Part shown: positions 1 through 7,764 of the stretch, one piece after another | Position numbering within the stretch: the stretch's first letter is position 1 | Layout of the letters: every line of letters begins with the position of its first letter | NCBI GenBank assembly: GCA_027415455.1 | Contig: DAIBSV010000088.1 | Span: 1-7,764 of the forward strand | Reading direction: 5' to 3' | Source: Nitrospirota bacterium | Lineage (GTDB): Bacteria > Nitrospirota_A > Leptospirillia > Leptospirillales > Leptospirillaceae | Length of the DNA stretch: 7,764 nt | The notes under the pieces: model-generated | Told to the model about the DNA's origin: nothing | The model's input: the letters and a program-made list of their open reading frames with translations, nothing else | The model's database searches: none | Position numbers and translations under genes: made by a program

Positions 1-525
1 CCACCGTCCGGCCTTGCCTGTCACGGTGGCGTTCCTGATCTCTCCCGCAATCTGCCGGGAGAGGCGGACCTTGACCCACCCCACCTTGGGGAGAAAGATC
101 CGGGGCAGGAGATTCCGTCCCTCCTCATCCCGGATTGCAAGATCGAGCTTCACCTGGAGGGGATCGGGATACCGGAGGGACTCCCCCTCGCCCTTCCTTT
201 TGAACCGTGGGAAGCGCTTCGGGTTTCTCCGGTCCAGGGCGTCCCACATGGCCCGGTCGAGGTTCCTGAGGGTCTGCTGCTGGGGATGGACCGGACCGAG
301 CGACAGAAACCCGTATTCCTCGCTCGATCGCCACAGGGTCAGGAGCTTGGCCAGGTCCCCGTAGGACAGGAGAGGCATCCCGGATTCGAGCCGTTTCGTC
401 TGAAGATCGAGGGCCTTGTTCCAGACGAACCGGACGCACCCCGCATGGCGTGACAGGAGTCTCTCCTGTTCGGGCGTCGGAACGAGCCGGAATTTGAAGG
501 CTTGCATTCTTTTCATGTTGGGCAT
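1..525 (-). CDS. tnpB: TnpB-like protein (IS200/IS605 family), N-terminal part, cut by window edge
   Basis: My reading of the minus strand gives an open frame of 175 codons with no stop, running off the left edge. The first residues (MQAFKFRLVPTPEQERLL, then HAGCVRFVWNKAL) match the N-terminal helix-turn-helix signature of TnpB/OrfB proteins. They are followed by the typical NPKRFPRFKRKGEG stretch and a basic beta-rich region. TnpB is an RNA-guided nuclease of IS200/IS605-type elements and the ancestor of Cas12. The RuvC catalytic residues, the zinc finger and the guide-RNA-bearing right end would lie off-window, so activity cannot be judged. The start is uncertain: ATG at 525, 516 or 507 are all in frame and none has a strong ribosome binding site. 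The MQAFKFRL start at 507 looks most like family members. It lies on the same strand as array 1 and casDinG, about 100 bases beyond the last repeat, and looks more GC-rich than the cas genes, which suggests a separate insertion. Confidence 0.88.
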   Translation of the reverse strand, partial: MPNMKRMQAFKFRLVPTPEQERLLSRHAGCVRFVWNKALDLQTKRLESGMPLLSYGDLAKLLTLWRSSEEYGFLSLGPVHPQQQTLRNLDRAMWDALDRRNPKRFPRFKRKGEGESLRYPDPLQVKLDLAIRDEEGRNLLPRIFLPKVGWVKVRLSRQIAGEIRNATVTGKAGRW

Positions 526-623
526 TGTCGCAGAAAACCCCGCACTGAAAGCCACGACAGGGACGGCCCTGCCGTCCGCGCTATCCTTCCCCGCGCCTTT
601 CGGGCGAGGTTTGCCGCGCGATT
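526..623. other. Spacer region between array 1 and tnpB, with a hairpin at 561-577
   Basis: This short noncoding stretch contains a perfect inverted repeat, GGACGG, a five-base loop CCCTG, then CCGTCC (561-577). A weaker one lies around 594-606 (CGCC/GGCG). Neither is followed by a T-run on the minus strand, so neither looks like an intrinsic terminator for the array transcript. The 561-577 hairpin lies just upstream of tnpB, where the left-end imperfect hairpin of an IS200/IS605-type element would be expected, but I cannot define the element's boundary. Both readings are inference. Confidence 0.4.
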
Positions 624-1189
624 GGATCACCCCTGCACGCAGGGGAAATCCACCTCCCAGATATCCCCGGTCTGTCGAAAGACAGATTCTCACCCCTGGC
701 CCGCAGGGGAAACCTCCACCGGGAGGACGGCCCCGCCGTCGAGTATTTCTCACCCCTGCACGCAGGGGAAATCCCTTTCTCGTCTTTCCGAATCCGGGCA
801 TCGTCCTTCTCACCCCTGCGCGCAGGGAAAACCCTCCTTACCCTTCCAGAGCTTGCCCCCTCCTGCTTCTCACCCCTGCACGCAGGGGAAACCTTCGCAG
901 ACCCTGGCCGACCTTGCGATTCTCACCCCTGCACGCAGGTGATGCCCTAGCCGAGCGGGATCGCTCAGTTCCATCGTTTCCTTCTCACCCCTGCACGCAG
1001 TGGAAAAACTAGACCTTGAGGAGTTCATACGATCGCGGTATTTCCTCACCCCTGCACGCAGGGGAAACCCGGCTGGAAGGAGGCAGCCATAAAATGGCTT
1101 TTCTCACCCCTGCACGCAGGGGAAACCCGATTTCCAGGCGCTTGTATCCGATTCTCTCTTCTTCTCACCCCTGCACGCAGGGGAAATCC
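624..1189 (-). CRISPR. CRISPR array 1 (10 repeats, 9 spacers), minus-strand orientation, type IV-A
   Basis: Ten 28-29 base repeats lie at 624-651, 687-714, 747-774, 807-834, 867-894, 920-947, 982-1009, 1043-1070, 1101-1128 and 1162-1189. They are separated by spacers of mostly 30-35 bases; the spacer at 895-919 is only 25. Read on the minus strand each repeat is a variable 5' part, a stem CCCCTG/CAGGGG closed over CGTG (or CGCG, CGGGC), and a 3' tail TGAGAA. This is the layout of type I-E/IV-A repeats, in which Cas6-type enzymes cut at the 3' base of the hairpin and leave a 7-8 base handle. That orientation makes the array collinear with casDinG, whose stop codon directly touches the first repeat. 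The far repeat (624-651) has a degenerated 3' end, as expected for the leader-distal end. Repeats at 807, 920 and 982 carry stem mismatches or wobbles. No leader is visible at either end. Confidence 0.95.
948..981 (-). repeat. Spacer shared with array 2 (copy 1)
   Basis: Read on the minus strand this 34-base spacer matches the first spacer of array 2 (6987-7020) at 31 of 34 positions. The repeat that follows it (920-947) shares with its array 2 counterpart the unusual 5' sequence GGGCATC, found in no other repeat. Including the preceding CAGGGGTGAGAA, the matched block is 920-993 against 6975-7048, with about 70 of 74 positions identical in inverted orientation. Confidence 0.9.
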
Positions 1190-3397
1190 TCAACGAATTA
1201 CCTGCTGCTTACGATAGTTTGTCCGATCAAACATTCGTCGTGCAATTTTCTGGAAGCGCTCGAACTTCGGCCATTCTGTCCAAAGTCGTCCGTCAAGGAC
1301 CCAAAGATTTTTTTCCGGGGCATTCGGGTGGCGTACGAGACGACCCAGACCCTGCTTGATGATCAGTAACGCATCTTTGATGATCGAATCAACCCCTGTT
1401 TTTTCGAAGCGAGACATGGCTGATGTTGTTTTGTTGAGCCCTATTGGAAAGCAGGCAATGATGAGGTCACTCAGAAGCGAGTCATGCTCCGGAGCAACCG
1501 ATTTGTCGGTCAAGTCGATGCCCGTCCAAGCCACCCCCGTTGCGATCAGAATGGGCCGTGCTCCTTCAGTATGAAGCGCACGAAATTTCTCTTCGGCAAC
1601 GCTAAACTTCTCGTTGCGCCGCTGAGCCACAATGCGCGTCGGAAAAGGAATATGCTTGGCCAGGGCCTCGACCTGGGCAAACGATGCGGTCAGAATGAGG
1701 GTCCCCCCTCGGCTCTCTTCAACAATTTTTCGGCACTGATCCGCAACATTGATGAGCCAATGCGTTTCAGACTCCTCCGACCTCACTTTATCGAGAGGGC
1801 GTGAAAGTTTTTCCGCTAACTCCTTGGAAGGAAGATGGAGCTTGGGAATCGCGGTAATCCAGCTGGCAATAACAGGAGGAGGTGTGTCTGTTCTCCCTTT
1901 CGGCATGGCCAGGAGCGATAACATGTAATCCGCACGATTGTTTCCGAACTCATCTGAAATATAAAGTGTGGCGGAACAAACGGCGGCGCTCCCTACGGAT
2001 TTCCAGAGATTTCCGAGAACGTCGCCTACGCTATCTCGTCCAATAACAATCGAAGGGAATCGGAGATCTGGCGAAAATTCGACAAAGGCAGACCACTTTT
2101 TTCCCATGACGACGTTGATGGCTTCTTTGATGACCGATCGGTCATTTCCGATATCCCTGACGACCGACAGCGGTTTCGGCGTCAAGGCCTGTCCTATTTC
2201 TTCCAACATCTCCTTTATTTCGTCGAAGTCTTCCATGTGCGGACCCAGACTGATTCTTCTTTCAGAAAAAGCGGCGACGTCTGAAAGACGCGTGCGAGAA
2301 CTTTCGATGATCTTGAGCGCCTTGACGATGGAGGATCCGTTTGAGGCTCCGGTCGCTTTGGCGGCCTGTTTCAAGCGAAAACGAAGGGATGTCATGGAAA
2401 GGGATTCGGAGTGAATTTTGGCGAAATTCTGCTCGAGTTGATGCGCTTCATCGACGATCAGAACATCCGGTGCCGGGAAGGCCGCCCATTGACGCTGGTG
2501 CGCACGCGCCAGCATGGCATGTGTACAAAAAAGAATATCCGATGCGATCGCCGCCTGTCTTACAGCCAACAGCGACTGGTGAAGCTCCTTTTCCTCGGAC
2601 CGAAGGAGAAAATCATTCACGGGCACATCCTTTGCCAACTGGCGTAGGTCATCCGCCAAGAACGCAAGACGGGCCCCAGATTCCCGCATGGCGCGAATAA
2701 GGGGAGACTCCATTAAGACGGGCCCTCCCTCGAGGATCCAACTTCTGACGCCAATGTCGATCGAAGCATCTTCCGCAATCCATTCGCGAAGACGTTCCTC
2801 GCTGACGAATTCTGTTATGCCTGGAAAGAAGCCAGCCGTCACCCCCTGGGCGATCCCTTCATCCTTAAGATTTTCGTATTCCACCCACAACTGTCCGATA
2901 ACTTTGAGAGTTGGCGCCGTCATGACCACACGCTTTTTTTTCCTCGCCTGAAGGATGGCCGCCGCCACCATCGCGCGGGACTTCCCGATGCCCGTCGAGG
3001 CTTCCGCCAGACAGAGGCGACCGTTGTCCAGCGATGTCGCAATGTTTTTAAAAAACGTGATCTGTTCCTGGGACTGCGTGGAGAAGGGTGGCGGCGAGGA
3101 TGTTTCGACCTGCATAGAAAATGCGGCCTGTTTTCCCTGCAAAATCTTGAGGCCGGCAATCATCAGTGATGCAAAAACATCATCAAAGGTCAGACCATCC
3201 GCTTGGTGTTTTTCAACCAGTTCCTCCACTTTCGCCATGATGACGGGCGGAATGAAGAGCGTTTTCTTGTTGATGTTTTTCAAGGAAACCTTTTCAGGCT
3301 TGACGCCATCATTGAGCGCTTTCGAGATCGCTGATCTGAAGGTGACGCCGGGAAGAGTGGGCGGGATGGGAATAACAGGAACGTAACGGTTTGGCAT
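1190..3397 (-). CDS. csf4: CasDinG (Csf4), type IV-A CRISPR-associated XPD/DinG-like superfamily 2 helicase
   Basis: The 735-residue protein has the DinG/XPD helicase motifs in order: Walker A in AEASTGIGKS (131-140), DEAH box (316-319), SAT (475-477), a motif V-like ATGVAWTGIDLTD (619-631) and motif VI QGLGRLVR (682-689). Between motifs I and II, where DinG and XPD carry four cysteines for a 4Fe-4S cluster, I find only one cysteine (about 291), so the cluster is absent. That is the known state of CasDinG proteins. The N-terminal ~110 residues before the helicase core match the accessory N-terminal domain of this family. CasDinG is a 5'-3' ATP-dependent helicase recruited to the Csf-crRNA R-loop and needed for type IV-A interference, which does not require target cleavage. 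The start ATG at 3397 is supported by AAGGAG (3403-3408) five bases upstream. It is transcribed away from the other csf genes, and its TGA (1190-1192) abuts array 1 with no gap. Confidence 0.95.
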   Translation of the reverse strand: MPNRYVPVIPIPPTLPGVTFRSAISKALNDGVKPEKVSLKNINKKTLFIPPVIMAKVEELVEKHQADGLTFDDVFASLMIAGLKILQGKQAAFSMQVETSSPPPFSTQSQEQITFFKNIATSLDNGRLCLAEASTGIGKSRAMVAAAILQARKKKRVVMTAPTLKVIGQLWVEYENLKDEGIAQGVTAGFFPGITEFVSEERLREWIAEDASIDIGVRSWILEGGPVLMESPLIRAMRESGARLAFLADDLRQLAKDVPVNDFLLRSEEKELHQSLLAVRQAAIASDILFCTHAMLARAHQRQWAAFPAPDVLIVDEAHQLEQNFAKIHSESLSMTSLRFRLKQAAKATGASNGSSIVKALKIIESSRTRLSDVAAFSERRISLGPHMEDFDEIKEMLEEIGQALTPKPLSVVRDIGNDRSVIKEAINVVMGKKWSAFVEFSPDLRFPSIVIGRDSVGDVLGNLWKSVGSAAVCSATLYISDEFGNNRADYMLSLLAMPKGRTDTPPPVIASWITAIPKLHLPSKELAEKLSRPLDKVRSEESETHWLINVADQCRKIVEESRGGTLILTASFAQVEALAKHIPFPTRIVAQRRNEKFSVAEEKFRALHTEGARPILIATGVAWTGIDLTDKSVAPEHDSLLSDLIIACFPIGLNKTTSAMSRFEKTGVDSIIKDALLIIKQGLGRLVRHPNAPEKNLWVLDGRLWTEWPKFERFQKIARRMFDRTNYRKQQVIR

Positions 3398-3402
3398 TTT
3401 GT

Positions 3403-3408
3403 CTCCTT
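3403..3408 (-). promoter_or_regulatory. Ribosome binding site of casDinG
   Basis: AAGGAG on the minus strand, five bases before the ATG at 3397. It fixes the start of casDinG. Confidence 0.85.
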
Positions 3409-3412
3409 ATCT

Positions 3413-3439
3413 CAAGTGCGATTAAATTTAACACACTTG
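3413..3439. promoter_or_regulatory. Inverted repeat in the casDinG leader, possible operator
   Basis: CAAGTG (3413-3418) and CACTTG (3434-3439) form a perfect six-base inverted repeat. It surrounds a ten-base palindrome TTAAATTTAA (3422-3431). It lies between the casDinG -10 box and its ribosome binding site, where a repressor or a short RNA structure could act. No regulator gene is in the window, so the role is inference. Confidence 0.35.
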
Positions 3440-3465
3440 CATTATAGCAAGATATTCGATATAGT
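3437..3465 (+). promoter_or_regulatory. Predicted sigma70-type promoter for cas6-csf1-csf2-csf3 (and array 2)
   Basis: On the plus strand there is a TTGCAT -35-like box (3437-3442), a 17-base spacing and a TATAGT -10-like box (3460-3465). It occupies almost the same bases as the casDinG promoter on the other strand: each -10 overlaps the other's -35. The start would lie around 3472, giving a leader of about 115 bases before cas6. It is a weaker match to consensus than the opposite promoter. Confidence 0.5.
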
Positions 3466-3468
3466 CAA
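3441..3468 (-). promoter_or_regulatory. Predicted sigma70-type promoter for casDinG (and array 1)
   Basis: On the minus strand there is a -35 box TTGACT (3463-3468), a 16-base spacing, and a perfect -10 box TATAAT (3441-3446). It lies about 45 bases upstream of the casDinG start in an AT-rich intergenic region. A five-base inverted repeat CTTGC/GCAAG (3436-3440, 3447-3451) exactly brackets the -10 box and could be a regulator site. Because array 1 follows casDinG without a gap, this promoter would also drive the array. Prediction from consensus only. Confidence 0.7.
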
Positions 3469-3587
3469 CGAAAGGCATGGAGAACGGCGCTCGATCCCCT
3501 GTGCGTCAACTCCGAGTCATGCCAGTAGGTTCGTCCAGCATCTCCTGAGTCGGACTGAGCATCCTTCAGCATTAAAAAGGAGAAAAA

Positions 3588-4319
3588 GTGGCTGAATACA
3601 CAGAACTGTTTTTCCGGAGCAAGGCCTTTGGGGACGACCCAATATGGCCCGACATCGCCAGGAAGATGCTGGCGGAGGCTCTCGATGGAGAAAAAATTTC
3701 CCCTGTGTTTTTCCATCGGGACCACAAGGGATCCATTCAAGGACGTATTGGGGATGACAGGAACGGAGAGGGCATGGGACTGCCTCCGTCCGTTATTTTC
3801 GATGGCGGTCGTGGCTTTGTGCGGCTGTATGGGGTGGGACAGGAAGGGGTGGAAACCTTGGCTCTTTCTCTGCCAACACTTCTTTCAGCACTCAATCGCC
3901 ATCTTGGATCCCCTGTCTTACTGGAGATGCGACAAGGATCGCTGGACATCAAAGCCACCGGTTATGGCGTTCTCCATTCCATCCATCGCCTTGTCGTGTC
4001 GAAGAAGTCAGGATTCCCTGGCGATGATTACCAGGAAAGAATGAAACGGGAGATTGTGAGAGGGCTTGTCTCGTGCGCACGAATTCATGCCCCTCATTTC
4101 GAAAGCTTGATTCCGTCGGAGTCAGAGATCGAAGTTCTTGAGGGCGTTCCGTGCGCGGTGGAAATCAAACCCGGCATCATGGCCGGAGCTGTCAAGAATG
4201 TTGTTGTGGCCATGCCAATTCGTCTTTCTGGGCCATGGTCCGTCGGACGGTTGCGCTCGCGGGGATACGGACTTATTCGTTCCGTTAACCCAAGAGGATT
4301 TAGAATGGAGGTTTCATGA
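3588..4319 (+). CDS. csf5: Cas6-family pre-crRNA endoribonuclease of type IV-A (Csf5-like)
   Basis: This 243-residue protein starts at GTG, preceded by AAGGAG (3577-3582) with five bases of spacing. It is called mainly from position (first gene of a csf operon) and from a C-terminal glycine/arginine-rich loop SVGRLRSRGYGLI (218-230) preceded by a beta-rich segment (KNVVVAMPIRLSG). This is the G-loop arrangement of Cas6/Csf5 RAMP-fold proteins. It would cut the CCCCTG/CAGGGG hairpin of the repeats and probably stay bound to the crRNA 3' end. Histidines at 43 and 46 lie near the N-terminus, but I cannot assign catalytic residues with confidence. Its stop overlaps the start of csf1 (ATGA, 4316-4319), indicating translational coupling. 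Whether it is closer to Csf5 or to a type I-E-like Cas6e cannot be decided by eye. Confidence 0.8.
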   Translation: MAEYTELFFRSKAFGDDPIWPDIARKMLAEALDGEKISPVFFHRDHKGSIQGRIGDDRNGEGMGLPPSVIFDGGRGFVRLYGVGQEGVETLALSLPTLLSALNRHLGSPVLLEMRQGSLDIKATGYGVLHSIHRLVVSKKSGFPGDDYQERMKREIVRGLVSCARIHAPHFESLIPSESEIEVLEGVPCAVEIKPGIMAGAVKNVVVAMPIRLSGPWSVGRLRSRGYGLIRSVNPRGFRMEVS

Positions 4320-5035
4320 AAACACTGACCTCATCTGTGCTGGTTGCACAGGCGTTGGGGTTTCGTCAGGACGGCGTGCGATCCAAACGTGCCGGTCTGT
4401 GCGCCTACTGTGGTTTGTCCATCCAGGAAGGTGATCTTTGTATTCCTTTTTCGGCCGGCCAAGCTTTTATGGATGATCTCTCGTTAGCGGCAAAAGGATC
4501 TGGGTTGACGTGCGGTTATTGTGCCACCCTGCTGACTGTCGACGGTCTGAGGATGTCTGGATACGGCATGTTTTACAAAGGTGGTGTCGTCCCATTCCGA
4601 AAGTGGAAGGATATCGCAGAGGGAATCATAAATCCGCCCGAGCCACCCTTTGTCGCTGTGTACGCGACGGCCAACAACCAGCACATGGCATGGAGGGCGC
4701 CCGTCAATCTTTCTCGTGATCTTTTTTACGTCCGAGTCGGTCTCCGTGACCTTAAAATTCGTCGTCGAAAACTCCTGGAAGCGGTCGAGGGATGCCAACG
4801 TCTCGCTGGCATCATGGGTATTCCGGCCACGCAAAAATCCGTTGCCCACCCTTTCGCATCGCTTTCGACCAACCTGAAAGATGCTCATCACGGACAAATC
4901 CGGAGAAACCATTTTCACGAGGCAGCCATCGCGCTTCCAGACGATGCAGAAAGACTCTTCGATCTGACGCTTGGCGAAACATGGGCTCTTCGCTTCTTGT
5001 TGTCTCCCAACGCGGGAACAAAAGAAGACGAATAA
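4316..5035 (+). CDS. csf1: Csf1, small Cas8-like subunit of the type IV-A complex, zinc-finger protein
   Basis: This 239-residue protein has two CxxC pairs, C29-A-Y-C32 and C66-G-Y-C69, which form the zinc finger characteristic of Csf1. Downstream is the segment PPFVAVYATANNQHMAWRAPVNLS (about 110-133), a region I recall as conserved in the family. Csf1 is the signature subunit of type IV systems and takes the place of the Cas8/large subunit at the 5' handle end of the crRNA. In related complexes it helps with target or PAM-side recognition; that role here is inferred from family. The start is fixed by GGAGG (4307-4311) four bases upstream and by the ATGA overlap with the preceding cas6. The gap to csf2 is 33 bases. 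Confidence 0.9.
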   Translation: MKTLTSSVLVAQALGFRQDGVRSKRAGLCAYCGLSIQEGDLCIPFSAGQAFMDDLSLAAKGSGLTCGYCATLLTVDGLRMSGYGMFYKGGVVPFRKWKDIAEGIINPPEPPFVAVYATANNQHMAWRAPVNLSRDLFYVRVGLRDLKIRRRKLLEAVEGCQRLAGIMGIPATQKSVAHPFASLSTNLKDAHHGQIRRNHFHEAAIALPDDAERLFDLTLGETWALRFLLSPNAGTKEDE

Positions 5036-5068
5036 GTTCCTTTTCACAAACAACACAAAGGAGACATC

Positions 5069-6154
5069 ATGAAACTTCGCATCGACGCCATTCTTAAGAC
5101 CAAAACACCTCTCCATATTGCGGCCCCTGGCGGAGCACGCATGGATCCGAGCAACGGAAATATCGTTTACACTGGAGGAATTCCGTGTACGACCATACAG
5201 AAGCTCCCCATCCAGGACGGAGACGTAATTTATAACTATCCGGCTATCGCTGCGAACAATATTGCCGGGCGTTTACGCCGTCATGCGGCCAAGATCGTTC
5301 TTGACGTTTTAAAGAATAAAGGTCAGAAGGTGAGCCTTCACGCATATTCCGTCCTGCAATGCGGTGCTGCCACTGGCAATCCGGACGCAGCGGACATTAC
5401 CTATGAGGAATGGAAAAAAGCGACGGCTCATCCTTATATTGGCCTTTTCGGTGGCGGCAACAAAATGCTTCGAAGAAAAGCCAGAGTTCACAACGCATTG
5501 CCAATTATCCAGCCTGTACTCAATTTGATCGGCGATCTGGCGCATCCGGCCGCCGAAACCCACGCCCTCCCCTTGAAGTCTTACCTGACAAAGGCATGGT
5601 CTTTCCGGCGCAATGACGATCTTCGCGAACTTGTCAACATTTCAGTCGCCGCCGATGTTGTTGATCATTTTGAAGAGGAGTTTGAAAAACGCCAGATCTT
5701 GATCGTGACAGAACAGCTCAATAAAAAAGCCGGCGAGAGCAGCGAGCTTAAGTCCTCAACCAAAACTTTCTCGGCGATCGAATTCGTGATCCCAGGGATT
5801 CCTTTTGGATTGCTCTTTGAACTTGATGACGTCACTCCAGCGCAAGCAGGACTCTTTCTCCTGACACTCGAGAGCTTTCAAAAGACAGAGCACCTGGGTG
5901 GATATGTCCGCAATGGTTTCGGCGCATTTTCACTCAACGATGTTCGATTGACAAATCTTGAATCCGGAGAAGAGTGCAATATTTTTGATGGAGGAGCGCT
6001 CGTCAGACCATCAGTTTCAAACCTGCTTGATTCATGGTTTCACGAGGCCGAAAAACTTTCCGCTAAAGAGATTGAAGAAATTGTCAGCGTCACAGTCAAA
6101 GAGAAGAAGAAGAAAGAAAAAACTGAGAAAGAGCCCGCACATTCTCCTGCCTGA
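5069..6154 (+). CDS. csf2: Csf2, Cas7-like backbone subunit of the type IV-A complex
   Basis: This 361-residue protein follows csf1 in the conserved csf order. Features are an N-terminal beta strand (MKLRIDAILKTKTPLHIAAPGG) typical of Cas7/RAMP folds, and a central region rich in asparagine and arginine (NNIAGRLRRHAAK, about 65-77) of the kind that binds the target or crRNA. The C-terminal glycine loop is LGGYVRNGFG (276-285). Several copies would polymerise along the crRNA spacer. The last ~20 residues form a strongly lysine/glutamate-rich low-complexity tail (KEKKKKEKTEKE), probably disordered. The start is supported by AAAGGAG (5057-5063) with five bases of spacing. In the same frame the TGA stop is followed two codons later by a TAG. 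Confidence 0.92.
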   Translation: MKLRIDAILKTKTPLHIAAPGGARMDPSNGNIVYTGGIPCTTIQKLPIQDGDVIYNYPAIAANNIAGRLRRHAAKIVLDVLKNKGQKVSLHAYSVLQCGAATGNPDAADITYEEWKKATAHPYIGLFGGGNKMLRRKARVHNALPIIQPVLNLIGDLAHPAAETHALPLKSYLTKAWSFRRNDDLRELVNISVAADVVDHFEEEFEKRQILIVTEQLNKKAGESSELKSSTKTFSAIEFVIPGIPFGLLFELDDVTPAQAGLFLLTLESFQKTEHLGGYVRNGFGAFSLNDVRLTNLESGEECNIFDGGALVRPSVSNLLDSWFHEAEKLSAKEIEEIVSVTVKEKKKKEKTEKEPAHSPA

Positions 6155-6262
6155 CACTAGGCAGCCCGTCGAAGACAGGTATTCACCGATAGTAGAGAAA
6201 GGAGAAGCGGGAACGGCGCTATCCCGCCCCGGCAGCAATGCCGGGGCCTCCCGCGCAATCGG
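6155..6262 (+). promoter_or_regulatory. Structured csf3 leader: consensus ribosome binding site separated from the start by two hairpins
   Basis: AAAGGAG (6198-6204) is the same ribosome binding site sequence used by csf2, but it lies 58 bases before the csf3 ATG. Between them are hairpin 1, GCGGGA/TCCCGC (6207-6212, 6222-6227, nine-base loop), and hairpin 2, CCCCGGCA-GCAA-TGCCGGGG (6227-6246), an eight-base-pair perfect stem with a GNRA tetraloop. There is no T-run after either, so a terminator is unlikely. No good Shine-Dalgarno lies directly before the ATG. The stems could bring the binding site closer to the start, lower csf3 translation, or be a REP-like insertion. Confidence 0.6.
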
Positions 6263-6955
6263 ATGCAAGCACTCAAAGTCGTGTTTCGTTTCAGAAGTCC
6301 TCTCATGGTTGATTCCGAACATCCCCTGCACCTTGATGCCGTTTTGTCTTTTGCTCTTATGAAAGAACTGGAAGAGAACGAAAGCGCAAACCCTTGGCAA
6401 GAATCGCTTGACCTTTCTCATATTCTTGAAAAAACAGAAGGAACACCGTGGGTCTGGAAAGCCTCACAAATCGAATTTCGTTCCGGAATGGCTCCATTTT
6501 TATCCACACATCTCATGACGAATATGATTCGTCGTTCCGATCCGGAACGGACCTATGCCGATCTCGGGTATGCGTGGGAGACCAGTCGAACGGTCGGTCC
6601 AGCATTCAAGGTCGATACACGGTCCGGACAGCAAAGAGGCTACCAATGGCTGGCCGCAAGTCGATGGATTCGTGAGGCCACGGCTTGGGCCATCGGCGAT
6701 ATCGATGCTGTCAGACACTATCTAAGTTTTATTAAATTTCTTGGAAAACAAGGGCGAAACGGATATGGCCAAATTTCGGAAGTGTCCGTCGATCCCGTGA
6801 CTCAGGACGTAGAGAACGAAAACTGGAAGAAGAGATGTCTCCCGGAAGGGATCCCCGGTCTTCCTGGCATCGTCTACGAACCCTCGTTTGAGACCGCGCG
6901 ACCTCCCTACTGGAGGAGGACGGAGCGCGAACGCGTTCTCGTGCCGGTGATCTAA
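6263..6955 (+). CDS. csf3: Csf3, Cas5-like subunit of the type IV-A complex
   Basis: This 230-residue protein has an N-terminal RAMP-type strand (ALKVVFRFRSPLMVD) and a glycine-rich loop LGKQGRNGYGQISEV (160-174). Its basic C-terminus is ARPPYWRRTERERVLVP, which I recognise as typical of Csf3. Csf3 replaces Cas5: it holds the 5' handle of the crRNA and caps the Csf2 filament beside Csf1. The ATG at 6263 (MQALKVVF) begins directly at the first strand. The reading frame is open upstream to 6161 but has no usual start codon. The gap from csf2 is 108 bases and holds a structured leader, unlike the tight spacing of the other genes. The TAA (6953-6955) is two bases from the first repeat of array 2. 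Confidence 0.92.
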   Translation: MQALKVVFRFRSPLMVDSEHPLHLDAVLSFALMKELEENESANPWQESLDLSHILEKTEGTPWVWKASQIEFRSGMAPFLSTHLMTNMIRRSDPERTYADLGYAWETSRTVGPAFKVDTRSGQQRGYQWLAASRWIREATAWAIGDIDAVRHYLSFIKFLGKQGRNGYGQISEVSVDPVTQDVENENWKKRCLPEGIPGLPGIVYEPSFETARPPYWRRTERERVLVPVI

Positions 6956-6986
6956 GAGGTACCCCCCTGCGGGCCAGGGGTGAGAA

Positions 6987-7020
6987 GGAGACGATGGAAC
7001 TGAGCGGTCCCGCTCGGCTC
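6987..7020 (+). repeat. Spacer shared with array 1 (copy 2)
   Basis: First spacer of array 2. It differs from the array 1 copy (948-981, minus strand) at spacer positions 4, 21 and 34. It contains a perfect inverted repeat GAGCGG-TC-CCGCTC; in the array 1 copy one stem pair is broken by the position 21 change. Confidence 0.9.
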
Positions 7021-7231
7021 GGGCATCCCCTGCGTGCAGGGGTGAGAAGTAAACGGGCTCCAAGATCGGTCAAATATCGTAGGTACTCCCCTGCGTGCAG
7101 GGGTGAGAAGACACGGGCTCCCGGGATTTTTCCTGCGGCGATGGTGTTCCCTGCGTGCAGGGGTGAGAACGGGCGAGCCCACAGGGATGAGATTCGAACA
7201 GAGGATTTCCCCTGCGTGCCAGGGGTGAGAA

Positions 7232-7262
7232 GCAAGAGGGTGGAATGTGACCATCCACGAGA
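7232..7262 (+). repeat. Duplicated spacer A, copy 1
   Basis: This 31-base spacer recurs at 7480-7510 with a single difference (G or T at position 7). It contains the inverted repeat GTGGA/TCCAC. The identity extends into the preceding repeat end and the following repeat. Confidence 0.95.
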
Positions 7263-7290
7263 GGATTTCCCCTGCGGGCAGGGGTGAGAA

Positions 7291-7324
7291 TTGCCCGCCG
7301 TGTCCTCTCCGCGCCCCGATTTTT
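7291..7324 (+). repeat. Duplicated spacer B, copy 1
   Basis: This 34-base spacer is identical to 7664-7697. With the flanking repeat sequence the exact identity covers 74 bases (7279-7352 and 7652-7725), including a following repeat variant GGTTTACC that occurs only at these two places. Confidence 0.97.
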
Positions 7325-7416
7325 GGTTTACCCTGCGGGCCAGGGGTGAGAACTAGATAAGGACAGGGAAATCGAAATACTAAAACAGGTTTTCCCCTGC
7401 GGGCCAGGGGTGAGAA

Positions 7417-7450
7417 GTGTGTAACCGTTACACAGCCCCCTGTGTAACCA
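7417..7450 (+). repeat. Related spacer D, with a nine-base-pair hairpin
   Basis: This spacer contains GTTACACAG (7427-7435), CCCC, CTGTGTAAC (7440-7448), a perfect nine-base-pair inverted repeat. It is preceded by a further GTGTAAC arm (7419-7425) that can pair with GTTACAC instead. It is related to the spacer at 7726-7758. Confidence 0.9.
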
Positions 7451-7479
7451 GGTTTTCCCCTGCGGGCCAGGGGTGAGAA

Positions 7480-7510
7480 GCAAGATGGTGGAATGTGACC
7501 ATCCACGAGA
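7480..7510 (+). repeat. Duplicated spacer A, copy 2
   Basis: Second copy of the spacer at 7232-7262, 30 of 31 bases identical. The following repeat differs from that after copy 1 at two positions. Confidence 0.95.
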
Positions 7511-7663
7511 GGATTTTCCCTGCGTGCAGGGGTGAGAAGTACTCCTCCCAGAGTCGTTGTCCGATGACATGGGTTTTTCCCTGCGGGACAGGGGTGAGAA
7601 GTAAACGGGCGCCTCGGACGAGACGTCAAAGAAGGGTTTTCCCCTGCGGGCCAGGGGTGAGAA

Positions 7664-7697
7664 TTGCCCGCCGTGTCCTCTCCGCGCCCCGATTTTT
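7664..7697 (+). repeat. Duplicated spacer B, copy 2
   Basis: Exact copy of the spacer at 7291-7324 together with the repeat that follows it. Confidence 0.97.
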
Positions 7698-7725
7698 GGT
7701 TTACCCTGCGGGCCAGGGGTGAGAA

Positions 7726-7758
7726 TGTGTAAAATTTACGCAGCCCCCTGTGTAATGG
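7726..7758 (+). repeat. Related spacer D', diverged version of spacer D
   Basis: 26 of 33 positions match spacer D. The central hairpin is kept (TTACGCAG, CCCC, CTGTGTAA, with one G-U pair), and an upstream GTAAA/TTTAC pairing replaces GTAAC/GTTAC. The window ends just after this spacer. Confidence 0.85.
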
Positions 7759-7764
7759 GGATTT

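Follow-up and report, generated by a model that had tools for sequence, protein, structure and literature searches.

Where do the CRISPR RNAs (crRNAs) of a type IV-A system come from if no leader fits in front of its arrays? This question is raised by a 7,764-nucleotide (nt) stretch of DNA from a Nitrospirota bacterium of the Leptospirillaceae (contig DAIBSV010000088.1 of assembly GCA_027415455.1, positions 1 to 7,764 of the forward strand), called the window below. It carries a complete type IV-A, IV-A1-like CRISPR-Cas locus, which is a known system in an unusual layout and not a new one. The locus consists of two divergent units, casDinG on the minus strand (1190-3397) and cas6/csf5-csf1-csf2-csf3 on the plus strand (3588-6955), and each unit is followed by a CRISPR array. 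We propose, with a probability of about 0.65, that each array forms the untranslated 3' portion of a cas transcript. The features of the locus are as follows.

624 to 1189, minus strand (crRNA sense): CRISPR array 1, 10 repeats and 9 spacers (25-35 nt), directly after the dinG stop codon
1190 to 3397, minus strand: casDinG/csf4 helicase, full length (TIGR03117, E 1.4e-149, 499.8 bits against a cut-off of 400; PADLOC Csf4_1_IVA1, 5.5e-164)
3398 to 3587, no strand: divergent intergenic region, which holds overlapping promoter-like sites
3588 to 4319, plus strand: cas6/csf5 crRNA endonuclease (NF045575, E 2.2e-23, 83 bits, below the cut-off of 150; PADLOC typeIV_Cas6, 3.5e-22)
4316 to 5035, plus strand: csf1, cas8-like (TIGR03114, 3e-76, above the cut-off)
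5069 to 6154, plus strand: csf2, cas7 (TIGR03115, 1.5e-94, above the cut-off)
6263 to 6955, plus strand: csf3, cas5, full length (TIGR03116, 2e-45, above the cut-off)
6958 to 7764, plus strand (crRNA sense): CRISPR array 2, 13 repeats (6958-7725), extending to the end of the window

On the minus strand, dinG ends at 1190 and repeat 1 of array 1 occupies 1189-1162, with 0 nt between them. The csf3 stop codon lies at 6953-6955. Repeat 1 of array 2 begins at 6958 if the 29-nt repeat form (with a 5-nt loop) is taken and at 6959 if the 28-nt form is taken; the gap is therefore 2-3 nt. An earlier note on this DNA had given these distances as 0 and 2 bases and had concluded that there is no room for a leader at the proximal ends. 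Both distances were confirmed, and they leave no place for a leader with a promoter beside the first repeat. In alignments, the C-terminus of DinG (50 of 65 homologues found) and that of Csf3 (all 26 homologues) fall within a few residues of the ends of their relatives; P0001 in the DinG set and P0066 in the Csf3 set are the window's own proteins, with 99-100% identity. Thus, the arrays have not eaten into the genes, and the gene ends are natural.

The direction of the arrays was judged from the repeats. Each repeat reads as a 5' flank, a 6-nt arm, a loop of 4 or 5 nt, a second 6-nt arm and the tag TGAGAA, with the loop length of every repeat set by the best pairing. Of the 23 repeats, 21 carry the tag unchanged, the exceptions being repeats 3 and 10 of array 1 (A1R3, A1R10), and 19 of the 23 stems are free of mismatches. 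Substitutions in the stems give four wobbles and four mismatches on the assigned strand versus eight mismatches on the opposite one; two of the mismatched repeats, A2R7 and A2R13 of array 2, are copies of each other. By itself the stem evidence is modest. Conservation of the tag adds to it, as does the likeness of the repeats, by eye, to those downstream of csf3 in two Pseudomonas plasmids (L006 and L010 below). Each array has the same polarity as the gene preceding it, as the earlier note had claimed. The direction of cas genes has been proposed as a guide to array direction, and leaderless systems and an exception in type II-C are mentioned in the available excerpt of that report (PMC6737040). 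For IV-A1 crRNAs, an excerpt of PMC11519345 gives a 5' tag of 8 nt, from position -7 to 0.

The note had raised the possibility that the layout is new for type IV-A. The order of genes and arrays was compared with that in 16 other loci, of which 15 are from plasmids and one (L001) is from a genome; L021 completes the Aromatoleum record. The plasmid loci are 15 of the 24 records that matched csf2, with eight P. aeruginosa records (of the same score as L005) and a second Citrobacter record left out. Four pairs are close and not independent (L006/L007, L010/L016, L004/L015 and L011/L012). It turned out that dinG and csf2-csf3 are on opposite strands in 14 of the 15 annotated plasmid loci, the exception being L009; in the unannotated L001, an 814-residue open reading frame on the minus strand sits in the place of dinG. 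An array is found downstream of csf3 in all 16 comparators, and in all 16 the stem pairs are broken less often on the csf3 strand. The difference is clear in 11 loci; in the other five (L001, L002, L003, L013, L014) it amounts to one or two cells. Thus, the geometry for read-through from csf3 is general. The distance from the csf3 stop codon to the first repeat is 42 nt in L005, 55 in L006 and L007, 55 in L008 (uncertain, with 7 of 27 mismatches in the first repeat), 61 in L010 and L016, 96 in L015, 98 in L004, 102 in L011, 103 in L012 (uncertain, 10 of 28 mismatches), 113 in L003, 185 in L009, 190 in L002 and 252 in L001. In L014 it reaches 1723 nt, with cas6 and cas1 in between. For L013 the script gave 71 nt because it overlooked a degenerate first repeat, and reading by eye gives about 4-5 nt. 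By sequence comparison, the window's csf3 junction falls at the tight end of a range, with one near match (L013).

The dinG side is different. A search with the main-array consensus found no repeat behind dinG that runs the same way as dinG itself in any of the 16 comparators; de novo repeat searches concur, one covering 13 of the 16 loci and another all loci collected up to that point. The plasmid pKF715A of P. putida (L007) has degenerate repeats behind dinG at 2947-3300, which are of opposite polarity and point toward dinG. Three of them (2947, 3086, 3272) have 9-10 of 29 mismatches, and a fourth lies at 3153 in a 62-nt register; between 3400 and 8700 there is no equally good repeat match on either strand. 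These repeats are probably the relic of a second array. A further L007 match at 3147 with two mismatches was discounted, since the consensus used had been typed partly from the L007 relic itself and the argument would be circular. Isolated single matches were seen beside dinG in L004 (1313, 9 of 28 mismatches, with the main-array consensus) and in L006 (3183, 10 of 29, with the consensus partly typed from the relic). Degenerate arrays elsewhere could be overlooked, because the csf3-side arrays of L005, L008, L012 and L013 escaped the script. As far as these sequences tell, only the dinG half of the layout is unusual, with 0 of 16 comparators; the csf3 half is not exceptional, given about 4-5 nt in Azospira (L013) and 42-61 nt in six comparators, one of them uncertain.

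The Pseudomonas plasmid systems (P. aeruginosa PA83, L010; DN1, L006; P. putida pKF715A, L007) have the same five-gene order with divergent dinG, an array downstream of csf3 in the same direction, and a similar repeat with the tag TGAG/TGAA. They differ from the window in the csf3-array gap of 55-61 nt and in having no sense array behind dinG. Azospira sp. I09 pAZI09 (L013, 8577-8620) is alike in its divergent dinG and in the position of the csf3 stop codon just before a degenerate first repeat, which lies in the register of the array; it differs in that no array was found beside dinG, and the polarity of its own array is based on weak evidence. In Geoalkalibacter subterraneus pGSUB1 (L009, 8889-10057) the order is csf5-csf1-csf2-csf3-array-csf4, all on one strand, and about 20 nt separate the degenerate end of the array from the start of csf4. 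Unlike the window, it has a single array, 185 nt behind csf3, and dinG is downstream of it. In type IV-A3 of IncHI1B/IncFIB plasmids the array adjoins the cas genes as here, but a conserved 65-bp leader is present, according to an excerpt of PMC7434947. Neither genome_contigs nor viral_contigs yielded a relative in the search for csf2; the csf3 alignment search gave one locus in genome_contigs (L001) and none in viral_contigs, and the dinG alignment search gave three distant viral loci. A simple scan of these three showed no CRISPR array and one GC-rich tandem repeat (L017). Matches occurred in 9 of 399 genomes sampled from the order and in 2 of 398 sampled from the phylum; one in each sample was above the cut-off, and both are the Rhodoferax genome of L001. 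Among the weaker matches, L022, L024 and L031 were scanned for arrays, and none was found.

Promoter-like sites were sought with a sigma-70-like consensus at a threshold of 9 of 12. The single strong site in the window is on the minus strand at 3468..3441 (TTGACT-16-TATAAT, 11 of 12, with TG before the -10 box), and it overlaps a weaker one on the plus strand (3428..3456, 9 of 12). Inside these overlapping divergent promoters, an inverted repeat CTTGC-ATTATA-GCAAG (3436-3451) was seen by eye, a possible operator. No promoter-like site was found on the minus strand from 3441 to 1189, on the plus strand from 5440 to 6958, or within the arrays. Terminator-like sites were absent from the sense strand of dinG, array 1, csf3 and array 2. 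Over the whole window there are five promoter-like sites against 3.4 expected from shuffled sequences and eight terminator-like sites against 9.7, so only the 11-of-12 site is notable. The lack of leader room, the matching polarity and the absence of a promoter-like site close before the arrays make it the simplest reading that the precursor crRNA (pre-crRNA) is probably made as the tail of the cas mRNAs.

From this we infer the following course of events. RNA polymerase would start at the overlapping divergent promoters between dinG and cas6. One transcript would run from dinG into array 1, and the other from cas6-csf1-csf2-csf3 into array 2. Cas6/Csf5 would cut behind every repeat hairpin, giving crRNAs with a short 5' tag and leaving an mRNA whose 3' end is capped by a hairpin just past the stop codon. 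The crRNAs would load Csf1-3, after which DinG would be recruited and the target repressed, as in known IV-A systems. Helicase level might be coupled to array 1 guides and complex level to array 2 guides, as the note proposed; guides of both arrays could, on the other hand, be loaded by one and the same Csf complex. The content of such old leaderless arrays would owe its changes less to new acquisition than to recombination, duplication and point mutation. The hairpins begin 6 nt (dinG) and 8 nt (csf3) past the stop codons and would be covered by a terminating ribosome, so it may be speculated that translation and Cas6 cutting compete. More tentatively, arrays serving as cas 3' untranslated regions might let Cas6 cleavage set the mRNA 3' ends and the crRNA supply together, so that Cas6 would feed back on the half-life of its own operon and of dinG mRNA, and the guide pool would be tied to the helicase supply; we consider this wider coupling doubtful.

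Several results weigh against transcription of the arrays as cas mRNA tails. The stems of the comparators were predicted on the csf3 strand, and the polarity test therefore leans that way. Absences in the scans are weak evidence, since the totals are near the shuffled means and consensus scans overlook many sites. The first hairpin of array 1 is missing from the minimum-energy folds with dinG sequence and is present in the 131-nt centroid; at the csf3 junction the hairpin is present at 63 nt and displaced at 29 and 131 nt. Neither junction has a notable fold z-score. No convincing protospacer was found for array 1 (compared with plasmids only) or array 2 (phages and plasmids). Finally, array 1 may be decaying, as its degenerate repeats (A1R4, A1R5) and the insertion sequence (IS) in its last repeat suggest.

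This last point leads to the most probable of the alternatives, although we hold it to be rather unlikely. The arrays, chiefly array 1, might be relics whose leader was deleted up to the gene end, so that the tight junction is functionless debris around decaying repeats. The mismatched stems of A1R4 and A1R5, one 25-nt spacer and the IS insertion agree with this, and the degenerate repeats beside dinG in P. putida pKF715A offer a parallel; the conserved tags and intact stems described above, and the five uninterrupted cas genes, speak against it. Less likely again is that the arrays use their own promoters, located within the repeats or near the 3' ends of the dinG and csf3 coding sequences, so that cas mRNA and pre-crRNA are made independently. 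In type II-C of Neisseria, arrays are transcribed from their own promoters in the repeats, and the absence of a leader need not imply the absence of a promoter; the scan at its 9-of-12 threshold gave no sigma-70-like site in the arrays or in the sense stretches before them. A mis-join of arrays with common repeats during assembly is very improbable: a 74-nt unit is common to both arrays at 95%, and the contigs on which the window's own DinG and Csf3 occur in the database are no longer than 5064 and 895 bases, respectively, but at both junctions unique gene sequence runs straight into a 28-29-nt repeat, array 1 then enters a spacer without a close copy among the other 21, and all 16 comparators likewise have an array behind csf3.

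The assignment of the locus is based on profile matches. The models for csf1, csf2, csf3 and csf4/dinG all scored above their NCBIfam cut-offs, cas6/csf5 is a clear match under its own, and PADLOC names the genes in the same way. Thus, the hallmarks of type IV-A are found: csf1-csf3, dinG/csf4, Cas6/Csf5 (under the NF045575 cut-off) and two arrays with 23 repeats. As to the IV-A1 label, the top PADLOC model for dinG is Csf4_1_IVA1, and for cas6 it is an unlabelled IV-A model, with Cas6_2_IVA1 in third place. Walker A and DEAH motifs are visible by eye in the casDinG translation. Six identified open reading frames and two arrays leave no space for cas1 or cas2 in the window. The Rfam search of the window gave a single match, which was below the threshold.

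The far end of array 1 is occupied by a mobile element.

1 to 629, minus strand: IS200/IS605-type element, with the N-terminal part of tnpB (534..1, running off the window edge) and the left end (about 535-629)

The last repeat of array 1 reads ...CAGGGGTGATCC where ...CAGGGGTGAGAA is expected, and it is cut at about 627-629. From the cut point onward the sequence matches the left ends of IS200/IS605-type elements. Some match to the searched stretch was found in 58 plasmid records, not all of which cover the left end. Four of the five fetched copies were aligned (L036 was left out). They come from Azotobacter, Sulfuricystis, Allochromatium and Pseudomonas paraeruginosa; in all four (N)TGATC again marks the start of the match, and two have an annotated tnpB after the left end. 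The tnpB part scores above the PF12323 cut-off and under the cut-offs of the TnpB family models, the protein being partial. Both TnpB and the left-end palindrome of the family are thus present; the right end, and a tnpA if there is one, would fall outside the window. Most likely the element was inserted in the tag of the last repeat. The end at 624 is therefore not the natural end of array 1, an interruption that the note does not mention, and the array may continue beyond the element. In Allochromatium vinosum pALVIN01 (L034, 1-251), the 3' end of an annotated cas1 gene is where a copy of the left end begins. A palindrome like the same left end also lies between csf2 and csf3 (6200-6262), directly before the csf3 start codon. 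Its score of 17 equals the best of 300 shuffles (mean 9.5), so that kinship with the IS left end is suggestive only. The csf2-csf3 gap is 108 nt here, 98 nt in L008 and at most 21 nt in the other 14 of the 15 annotated plasmid loci; the IS-like palindrome may explain its length in the window.

Both arrays look old, to judge by their uneven units, degenerate repeats, duplicated spacers and one diverged unit in common.

948 to 981, minus strand: array 1 spacer 4, a diverged copy of array 2 spacer 1
6987 to 7020, plus strand: array 2 spacer 1, a diverged copy of array 1 spacer 4

The shared 74-nt unit includes parts of the flanking repeats. The arrays otherwise differ in spacer content, so the description of the locus as mirror-symmetric holds for position only. 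Repeats start 59-64 nt apart in array 2 and 53-63 nt apart in array 1, compared with 60-62 nt in L006 and L010; the distances also vary in other comparators (71-75 nt in L002, 73-77 nt in L009), so uneven spacing is no proof of decay. In array 2, spacers 6 and 12 have the same sequence, spacers 5 and 9 differ by a single base, and spacers 8 and 13 are partly alike. Such a pattern is what would be expected of recombination, duplication and point mutation, to go by the spacers, and past acquisition is compatible with it as well. Spacers 8 (7417-7451) and 13 (7726-7758) have the near-palindromic TTAC(A/G)CAGCCCCCTGTGTAA in common, perhaps reflecting two related operator or iteron targets. Palindromy as a main theme of the spacers was rejected: the mean longest stem is 4.4 versus 3.6 in shuffled spacers, and 4 of 22 (A2s8, A2s9, A1s2, A1s5) singly have p < 0.05, strongly only A2s8. 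Self-targeting was also rejected, with a top local score of only 13 against the window outside the arrays (A1s8, on the side of the tnpB element). For array 2, no protospacers were found among phages or plasmids; array 1, compared with plasmids, gave three weak matches over 5-14% of the query. Four exact spacer patterns, including the motif of array 2 spacers 8 and 13, gave 0 of 4 in viral_contigs. Without a protospacer, the protospacer-adjacent motif could not be used to fix polarity.

In a limited literature search we found no account of type IV-A array transcription or of co-transcription with cas genes, and a prior description is possible. As judged from the DNA, it is plausible that both arrays are tails of cas mRNAs, and the unusual feature is the sense array at dinG only. 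Since the locus has no leader room, the transcription of type IV-A arrays becomes directly testable here: if crRNAs are made, their source is read-through of the cas mRNAs or promoters inside coding sequence or the arrays. The locus is, moreover, a hint that type IV-A arrays can last without a leader, changing through recombination and mutation.

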